A DNA stretch of 44,508 bases from Lawsonibacter sp. (GTDB taxonomy: Bacteria; Bacillota; Clostridia; Oscillospirales; Oscillospiraceae): the NCBI GenBank assembly GCA_022795855.1, contig JAAWHL010000010.1, positions 1 to 44,508 on the forward strand, in the 5' to 3' direction. The notes under the pieces were generated by a model, which worked only from the letters and a program-made list of their open reading frames with translations, ran no database searches and was not told the origin of the DNA. The position numbers were made by a program, and so were the translations under genes. This document shows, one piece after another, positions 3,578 through 5,514 of this stretch (the first letter of the stretch is position 1; each line of letters starts with the position of its first letter).

Positions 3578-4525
3578 TTAAAACATATGGCACAGCATGG
3601 CCGCGCCCACCACGCCGGCGTCGTTGCCCAGGGAGGCGCGCTCCAGGCGGGGGGGATTGGACGGGTCGAAGCATCCGCTGCGCACCAGCTCCCGCAGGGG
3701 GTCCAGCAGCAGGTCGTCCTCGGCGTTGCTGACGCCGCCGCCCAGGCAGATAATTTCGGGCTGAAGAATATTGACGATGTTAATCAGCCCCAGGGACAGC
3801 CCCTGGAGATAGCGGGAGAGCACCTTGCGGGCGGTTTCGTCTCCGCCGCGGGCGGCCTGGAAGGCGGTGCGGCCGGTGACCTTGAAGAGGTCGCCCTCGG
3901 CGCACTCCCACAGGGCGCTTTTGGGGCTGCGCTCCATCTCCTCCCTGGTGATGCGGATGAGGGCGGAGGCGGAGCCGTACTGTTCCCAGCACCCCCGGCG
4001 GCCGCAGTTGCACAGCGCGCCGTTGGGGTGGATGCACATGTGGCCCACCTCCATGCCTGAATTGGCCGCGCCGGTGTACAGCTTGCCGCCGGCCACCAGC
4101 CCGCCGCCGATACCGGTGCCCAGGGTGATGACCACGGCGGGATCCCGGCCCTTGGCGGCGCCGGCCCAGTACTCGCCGATGGCGGCGCAGTTGGCGTCGT
4201 TGCCCAGGAAGACGGGGATATCCCACTCCTCCTGGAAGAGGGCGCGGAAGGGGGTGTTGGAGAAGGGCATATTGGGGGTCTGCACGGCCACTCCGGTTTT
4301 GTTGTCCACCAGGCCGGGCAGGCCCACGCCCACCGCCTGGATCTGTTCGGGCCTGAACCCGCCCACCTGGGCGGCCTGGAGGGCCAGCTGGGCGGTCTGC
4401 CGGCAGACCGCGCCGGGGTCCCAGGACTTGTCCACGGGGCGGCTCACCTTGTCCACAATCTGCCCCTTGCCGTTGGTCAGGCCGGCCACCAGATTGGTGC
4501 CGCCGATGTCAATTCCGATATACAT
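3578..4525 (-). CDS. ROK family sugar kinase (glucokinase-like)
   Basis: 315 residues. ROK kinases phosphorylate glucose or a related sugar with ATP in the cytoplasm. The ATP phosphate loop is MYIGIDIGGTNLVAG at the N-terminus; the sugar-binding and catalytic stretch includes FLGNDANCAAIGE; a second ATP element is GTGIGGGL. The zinc site is complete: EVGHMCIHP supplies His and CNCGRRGCWEQY supplies the Cys ligands and the sugar-contacting Glu. There is no N-terminal DNA-binding domain, so it is a kinase rather than a ROK repressor. Start: ATG 4525 is 9 bases from the GGGAGG site, while GTG 4531 is too close. It begins 2 bases after the hprK stop, so the two are one transcription unit. Glucose is the likeliest substrate, not proven. 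Confidence 0.9.
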   Translation of the reverse strand: MYIGIDIGGTNLVAGLTNGKGQIVDKVSRPVDKSWDPGAVCRQTAQLALQAAQVGGFRPEQIQAVGVGLPGLVDNKTGVAVQTPNMPFSNTPFRALFQEEWDIPVFLGNDANCAAIGEYWAGAAKGRDPAVVITLGTGIGGGLVAGGKLYTGAANSGMEVGHMCIHPNGALCNCGRRGCWEQYGSASALIRITREEMERSPKSALWECAEGDLFKVTGRTAFQAARGGDETARKVLSRYLQGLSLGLINIVNILQPEIICLGGGVSNAEDDLLLDPLRELVRSGCFDPSNPPRLERASLGNDAGVVGAAMLCHMF

Positions 4526-4527
4526 GC

Positions 4528-5481
4528 TCACATACCTCCCTGTGCGGCTTCCTGTGCGAAGTGCTCGTCCATGCGGCGGGTCAGCTCCAGCGCCGCGTTG
4601 TAGCCCATCCTGCGGCTGCGGTTGTTCATGGCGGCCACCTCGATGATGCTGGCCAGGTTCCGGCCCGGCTTGACGGGGATGGTGATGGAGGCCACCTTAA
4701 CGCCGAGGATGTGGGTGTAGGAGCTCTCCAGGCCAAGCCGGTCATAGACCGCCGCGTCGTTCCAGGGCTCCAGGTTGATGACGATGTCGATTTGCTGCTC
4801 GTTTTTAATGGCCCGCAGGCCGAACAGGTTGCGCACGTCGATGACGCCGATGCCCCTAAGCTCCATATACTGGCGAATCAGCTCGGGCGAGGTGGCCAGA
4901 AGGGTGCCCCGGCCGGTGTCCCGCAGCTCCACCGCGTCGTCGGCAATCAGGCGGTGGCCCCGCTGGATCAGCTCGATGGCCACCTCGCTTTTGCCCACGC
5001 CGGACTCGCCCTGGATGAGCACGCCCTCGCCGAATACCTCCAGCATGACGCCGGAGCGGGTGATGCTGGGGGCCAGGTGGTTGGCCAGCGAGCCGATCAG
5101 CGAGCTCATGAAGGCCGAGGTCTGGGCGGCGGTGCGCAGCACGGTGCGGTCGTATTTCTCCGCCATCTCCATGCACTCCGGGGAGGGGCGGATGCCCCGG
5201 GTGAAAATCAGGGCGGGGACGGGGTAGGCCAGCAGGCGGTCAAAGCGCTCCAGGCGCTGCTGGGGGGTCATGTCCCCCAGATAGGTGGTCTCGGTCAGGC
5301 CCATCACCAGCAGGCGCTCGGTGTCAAAATGTTCGAAGAATCCGGCCAGAGGCAGTCCGGGGCGGTTTACATCCAGGGTGGTCAGGGGGACGTTGGGGTA
5401 ATCAACCCCTTCGTGGAGGACCTCAAGACCGAACTCTTGGATAATGCTCCCCAGCTTGACGAATTTTTTCTCCTGTGACAA
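4528..5481 (-). CDS. hprK: HPr kinase/phosphorylase with altered catalytic His
   Basis: 317 residues. HprK phosphorylates Ser46 of HPr with ATP or pyrophosphate, and reverses it, as the sensor of carbon catabolite control in Firmicutes. Walker A GESGVGKS (about 158-165), ADDAVE (180-185) and the family signature LRGIGVIDVRNLFG are clear. The catalytic Lys164 and Asp182 are present. However, the family's catalytic His, 21 residues before the Walker Lys, is Ser143 here (ITRSGVMLEVFG). Start: a TTG at 5481, 8 bases after GAGGAG, gives the normal family length. The longer frame from 5550 would run through the promoter (5515-5543). No HPr gene is in the window. The first gene of an hprK-ROK operon. 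Confidence 0.93.
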   Translation of the reverse strand: MSQEKKFVKLGSIIQEFGLEVLHEGVDYPNVPLTTLDVNRPGLPLAGFFEHFDTERLLVMGLTETTYLGDMTPQQRLERFDRLLAYPVPALIFTRGIRPSPECMEMAEKYDRTVLRTAAQTSAFMSSLIGSLANHLAPSITRSGVMLEVFGEGVLIQGESGVGKSEVAIELIQRGHRLIADDAVELRDTGRGTLLATSPELIRQYMELRGIGVIDVRNLFGLRAIKNEQQIDIVINLEPWNDAAVYDRLGLESSYTHILGVKVASITIPVKPGRNLASIIEVAAMNNRSRRMGYNAALELTRRMDEHFAQEAAQGGM

Positions 5482-5514
5482 GGGTATCGCTCCTCTCCCA
5501 GTAAATTCATGGTA

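Follow-up and report, generated by a model that had tools for sequence, protein, structure and literature searches.

The window analyzed here, a 44,508-nucleotide stretch of DNA from Lawsonibacter sp., carries the gene hprK, whose predicted product contains both domains of an HPr kinase (Table 1). The protein gave a full-length match to the TIGR00679 profile (350.5 bits against a cut-off of 240) and also exceeded the cut-offs for PF02603 (123.8 bits) and PF07475 (226 bits). Its AlphaFold2 model, for which the input alignment consisted of 23 proteins of the serine-containing type described below (Ser-type), has a mean pLDDT of 87.7, with a block mean of 94 at residues 141–150. The best PDB match of the model was 1ko7 (E 2.2e-33, TM 0.81/0.90), and the matches included 2qmh, the structure of the L. 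casei HprK V267F variant, a K3-loop change that reportedly shifts the balance between kinase and phosphorylase. By homology and predicted fold, the window protein is a member of the HprK family, and it is the only HprK match in its genome. A ROK-family gene lies next after hprK and, past a divergent L28 gene, are murB, rapZ, a CofD-domain (yvcK-like) gene, and whiA. Between window positions 3578 and 7629, the hprK–ROK pair occupies the strand opposite to murB-rapZ-yvcK-whiA; hprK and murB share a strand in 27 of the 28 Ser-type loci that show both, and the window's arrangement is found in the one left.

Table 1. The hprK gene of the window and the landmarks of its product
Feature	Position	Strand	Remarks
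hprK, 317 aa, TTG start	4528..5481	minus	HPr kinase N- and C-terminal domains
RBS-like GGGAGAGGAG	5490..5499	minus	eight bases upstream of TTG 5481; direct reading
Ser143, codon TCC, aligned to the catalytic His (L. casei His140)	5053..5055	minus	alignment
Walker A GESGVGKS, residues 158-165, with Lys164	4987..5010	minus	
Asp182, aligned to L. casei Asp179 (proton donor/acceptor)	4936..4938	minus	
Arg248, aligned to active-site Arg245	4738..4740	minus	
HprK signature region MELRGIGVI, residues 206-214	4840..4866	minus	
K3 loop PVKPGRN, residues 269-275, phosphorylase-linked	4657..4677	minus	

According to the passages cited here and below, His140 is an active-site residue of L. casei HprK alongside Lys161, Asp179, and Arg245 (PMC9399212) and has been termed the "catalytic histidine" (PMC1885854). 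In the M. pneumoniae enzyme, ATP binding is affected when Gly140, which directly follows the histidine, is mutated (PMC11204831), and the K3 loop is tied to phosphorylase activity (PMC9399212, PMC13130090). The first-pass annotation of this DNA had claimed that Ser143 replaces the catalytic histidine, 21 residues before Lys164, which in turn lies 18 residues before Asp182. The residue numbers and both spacings agreed with our reading, and the replacement was borne out by phmmer alignment to solved HprKs, which placed Ser143 on the histidine of 1ko7 (S. xylosus), 1jb1/2qmh (L. casei), and 1knx (M. pneumoniae) at a fixed spacing to Walker A; the alignment to 3tqf covered only the region downstream of this column. 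A pattern for the region with a non-His codon at the Ser143 column had a single match in the window and none in any of 100 shuffles. The canonical HprK/P enzymes of L. casei, S. xylosus, and M. pneumoniae share with the window protein the two-domain architecture, Walker A, Asp182, Arg248, the K3 loop, the predicted fold (1ko7), and an HPr partner with a Ser46 motif, but the window protein has Ser at the column of active-site His140. Judged by alignment, it is an HprK without the histidine that marks a canonical bifunctional HprK/P active site. Across the 330 distinct HprKs collected in this study (from 390 loci, where one genome may enter by two routes), the column holds His in 217, Ser in 108, Pro in 2 (L353 and L365), Asn in 2 (L247 and L211), and Thr in 1 (L222). 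The Lys164 column is Lys in all 330, the Asp182 column is Asp in 328 (the rest being one Asn and one gap), and the Arg248 column is Arg in 327 (with three gaps).

Within the genus, 64 genomes were sampled; 63 had an HprK match, exactly one each, and all 63 were read. The Ser143 column was Ser in 62 and Pro in one (L353), and the Ser carriers included named isolates and the single-contig genomes G005, G007, and G029. Because each of the 63 genomes had one match, no canonical backup HprK was found in the genus. The first-pass annotation had allowed for a sequencing error and had left open whether the serine was unique or shared by a clade. It is nearly clade-wide and is also found in five other lineages, and the 62 Ser-containing HprKs of the genus, with three single-contig genomes among their sources, exclude the error; given also the fixed spacing to Walker A, an artifact of sequencing or of a misaligned column, already refuted by the genus-wide reading, has a negligible probability. 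In other genera of the family, the 119 genomes read (out of 235 with a match, and composed of the best-scoring 30, 54 re-searched low scorers with a full-length match, and a hand-picked remainder) gave 117 His, one Ser, and one Pro; four more re-searched low scorers were fragments or unread and fall outside the 54. The sole Ser locus in this sample (L379, G284) has coordinates identical to those of L129/L301 (G319) and represents one genome that entered two samples. A phylum-wide sample, which counts primary full-length matches, comprised 54 HprKs: the window (Ser), L099 and L307 (both His, read earlier), and 51 newly read proteins (L461–L511), all of them His. Three second copies were read apart, and short partial matches fall outside the count. 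The prevalence of His, at 51 of 51 in this sample, suggests that it is the ancestral residue.

We scanned 84,980 species (one genome each, GTDB) with a sequence pattern and obtained 78 loci, all with Ser. The pattern ([A/T][C/G]N codon, then GV, with an acidic residue five on) was open to Ser, Thr, Cys, Trp, and AGR-Arg codons at the His column; because it misses Asn, Pro, Gln, Ala, and the SGD-type Erysipelotrichaceae, there are at least 78 such loci. They belong to Oscillospiraceae, Lachnospiraceae, and Erysipelotrichaceae, with names including Flavonifractor, Pseudoflavonifractor, Flintibacter, Colidextribacter, Lawsonibacter, and Lachnospiraceae and Erysipelotrichaceae bacteria, and 51 of the 78 encode an HprK identical to that of a genus member already in the set. 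Relatives of the outlying lineages were read as four neighborhoods: 19 Ser, 18 His, 1 Asn, and 1 Thr among 39 loci in Erysipelotrichaceae; 34 His, 4 Ser, and 1 Asn among 39 in Lachnospiraceae; 30 His and 1 Ser among 31 around L129; and 18 His and 3 Ser among 21 around L180. In one metagenome-assembled genome (G314), HprKs of both types, Ser and His, were found (L251 and L302), reflecting contamination or true paralogues.

Trees were built with the His column removed, using FastTree for 326 proteins (4 of the 330 were shorter than 260 residues and were left out) and IQ-TREE for 94 of the 330, hand-picked to hold every non-His lineage (quick search, SH-aLRT only). The His/non-His label changes 8 times on the trees, or 11 times with each residue counted apart, and the starred branches alone force 8. 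The FastTree tree contains eight non-His clades (six Ser, one Asn, and one Pro), with a Pro member included in one of the Ser clades and an Asn and a Thr member in another. The trees give no direction of change, and gains and reversals are indistinguishable in Erysipelotrichaceae because the key fork there is not resolved. As far as the sequences tell, the change from His to Ser appears to have arisen and been kept several times (about six) in separate gut lineages. No paper describing a natural non-His HprK was found by title or abstract start in the open-licence literature.

A change from a His codon (CAY) to Ser requires two base changes. The 108 distinct Ser-type genes use TCC (68), TCT (15), TCG (15), TCA (7), AGC (2), and AGT (1), with both TCN and AGC inside the Lachnospiraceae Ser clade; CCC (Pro) and AAC/AAT (Asn) were also found at the column and could have been one-step intermediates on the way to TCN and AGY. 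Pairwise comparisons (pairs with dS of 0.1–1.5) gave median dN/dS values of 0.22, 0.17, and 0.20 for three Ser-clade sets (with one Pro in the first and, in the second, a single Asn and a single Thr) and of 0.13 and 0.30 for two His sets. The variety of codons (TCN and AGY) and the purifying selection indicate that Ser has been kept while the DNA turned over, and by these measures the serine in these HprKs is maintained by selection. Gene decay was ruled out by the dN/dS values and the intact motifs.

The first-pass annotation had also proposed that another residue may take over from the histidine. From position 120 on, no column except 143 was unusual (group consensus above 60% and below 8% among His-types) in all six Ser lineages, and the proposal found no support beyond the serine itself. 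Gln157 and Val167, near the P-loop, mark the main Ser clade only. Identities to the His-type consensus in the Ser and His sets were 0.881 and 0.887 for the P-loop, 0.813 and 0.816 for the signature, and 0.809 and 0.848 for the K3 loop; the K3 loop together with the following helix was somewhat less alike (0.746 for Ser versus 0.810 for His). Gly273 (104 of 108) and Arg274 (103 of 108) are present in every Ser-type with a letter at these positions, and the conservation of the K3 loop in Ser-types suggests that the phosphorylase is still used and not wholly lost. The third position of the signature MELRGIGVI is Leu, which departs from the consensus given in the cited passage, (I,L,M)E(I,V)RG(I,L,M,V)G(I,V)(I,L,M) (PMC2937029), as it does in 174 of the 217 His-types.

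Two HPr matches were found in the window's genome, whose HPr1 and enzyme I lie on contigs other than that of hprK. HPr1 (L091) contains a His15 motif as well as NAKSLLGVLSLG, the Ser46 motif, with positions 15 and 46 numbered as in B. subtilis HPr; HPr2 (L092, G000 contig 14) adjoins enzyme I and, in an alignment made by eye, has no Ser at the Ser46 place. The pair suggests that sugar transport and HprK control may be split between HPr2 and HPr1. All 30 of the best-scoring HPr loci of the genus contain NAKSLLGVLSLG. Among a further 52 genomes, 48 had an HPr match, and the Ser46 motif was present in all of the best-scoring 30 loci (26 from non-His and 4 from His genomes). Five genomes of the Lachnospiraceae neighborhood (Ser-type L448, L452, and L454, His-type L449, and Asn-type L457) have a Crh-like HPr with Glu for His15 (GLEARPV) and the Ser46 motif kept. 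With Ser46 as the only known site left in the Glu15 HPr, the Ser-type HprK is arguably active as a kinase; the Ser46 loop of HPr could also be conserved for reasons other than HprK. A separate HPr-like protein (L094, G033) has Asn at the His15 place (GLTNRTA) and keeps the Ser46 motif. Of 30 Ser-type genomes, 22 had an enzyme I above the family cut-off; it was not found in the other 8, several of which are incomplete metagenome assemblies. Loss of the PTS as a requirement for Ser was ruled out by these 22 genomes, in a comparison confined to Ser-types.

ABC ATPases offer a structural analogy. In the cited passages, HprK His140 superposes on the catalytic histidine of ABC ATPases, as do the bound phosphates, and ABC type 2 domains without the H-loop histidine include CFTR NBD1 (Ser605) and TAP1 (Gln701) (PMC1885854). 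These domains resemble the window HprK in having Ser or Gln at the superposed position, without homology; in CFTR NBD1 the second acidic position is also Ser (D572 S573), whereas the window HprK keeps the acidic pair (PMC1885854). ABCC1 NBS2 with Gln or Asn in the H-loop is described as retaining wild-type-like transport, which mutation otherwise nearly abolishes (PMC7756269). These H-loop cases suggest that the forward reaction may need no more than a hydrogen-bonding side chain, a role open to Ser.

Taken as a whole, the sequences point to the Ser-type HprK as probably a working variant. The interpretation we favor, and hold to be moderately probable, is that it is an active HPr(Ser) kinase in which the change from His to Ser has been selectively kept, the Ser hydroxyl has taken over the phosphate contact, and activity may be biased towards the kinase without loss of the phosphorylase. 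HPr Ser46 would still be phosphorylated by the Ser-type enzyme, with the Ser hydroxyl hydrogen-bonded to the transferred phosphate in place of the imidazole. Less firmly, an active site without a titratable imidazole might show shifted Pi-dependent phosphorolysis and a shifted response to pH, Pi, and PPi, and this shift would bias the enzyme towards the kinase, with the phosphorylase not abolished. The first-pass annotation had raised an altered balance; a phosphorylase that is weakened or retuned is plausible, a step resting on chemistry and analogy. It is a more speculative and rather doubtful extension that the change is a natural switch, repeated in gut Bacillota, from a reversible enzyme to a kinase-dominated or Pi/PPi-insensitive one, with largely one-way HPr-serine phosphorylation.

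Serine might instead fully replace the histidine in an ordinary bifunctional kinase/phosphorylase, the swap being near-neutral and tolerated. The conserved K3 loop and other catalytic residues would fit such an enzyme, as would the lack of an accompanying change in all six lineages, and the occurrence of Pro, Asn, and Thr means that the column may simply tolerate change; Pro, present in two sequences, could not supply the hydrogen bond proposed above and is a misfit for the phosphate contact. Against tolerance, His hardly varies elsewhere (51 of 51 newly read in the phylum sample and 117 of 119 in other genera of the family), and Ser, two base changes from His, occupies six of the eight non-His clades and was then held across divergence. 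We consider a tolerated swap unlikely, yet a serious competitor. A dead or purely regulatory HprK is far less probable. It would be analogous to ABC domains without the H-loop histidine, and non-His NBD1 domains are described in the cited passage as usually regulatory (PMC1885854), but Walker A, Asp, and Arg are intact in the Ser-types, no second HprK was found in the genus, and Ser46 is kept in the partners read, including HPr without His15. That another histidine elsewhere in the fold takes over is more improbable still: His occupies position 294 in 96% of the main clade versus about 7% of His-types, but this residue is Tyr294 in the window protein, and none of the other five lineages was flagged for His294.

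Other altered HprKs have been described. The alpha-proteobacterial (Brucella) HprK is also naturally altered, and poor phosphorylase activity is reported for it in the cited passage; it is described as being without the N-terminal domain and a C-terminal region, whereas the window HprK has both domains and the K3 loop and differs at the histidine (PMC2937029). Within the K3 loop, G268R in G. kaustophilus HprK led its authors to infer accumulation of P-Ser-Crh, and the L. casei G58S/G270R enzyme has impaired phosphorylase, for which either change may be responsible (PMC13130090, in the passages cited). Such K3-loop alleles, which move the balance between kinase and phosphorylase, are strain or laboratory mutations, whereas the window HprK has an intact loop and a natural change that is fixed in a genus. 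On present sequence evidence, the Ser-type is real: a variant of the active site in a known enzyme family that recurs and is maintained by selection. The same replacement of His in about six lineages, with no common second change, amounts to a natural comparative experiment on the role of this residue, and it bears on the tuning of HPr-serine control in gut Oscillospiraceae, Lachnospiraceae, and Erysipelotrichaceae. Annotation rules that demand the histidine and inhibitor work on that pocket are affected too.

Active-site changes of other kinds were seen among HprKs that keep the histidine. One His-type protein (L103, G160) has Asn for the catalytic Asp (IADNAV). The three second homologues from the phylum-wide sample (L512–L514, from G652, G495, and G676) represent a divergent paralogue that keeps His (IHGVCV), lacks the Arg of YDRLG, and has LRSIG for LRGIG, an active-site change opposite to that of the Ser-types.
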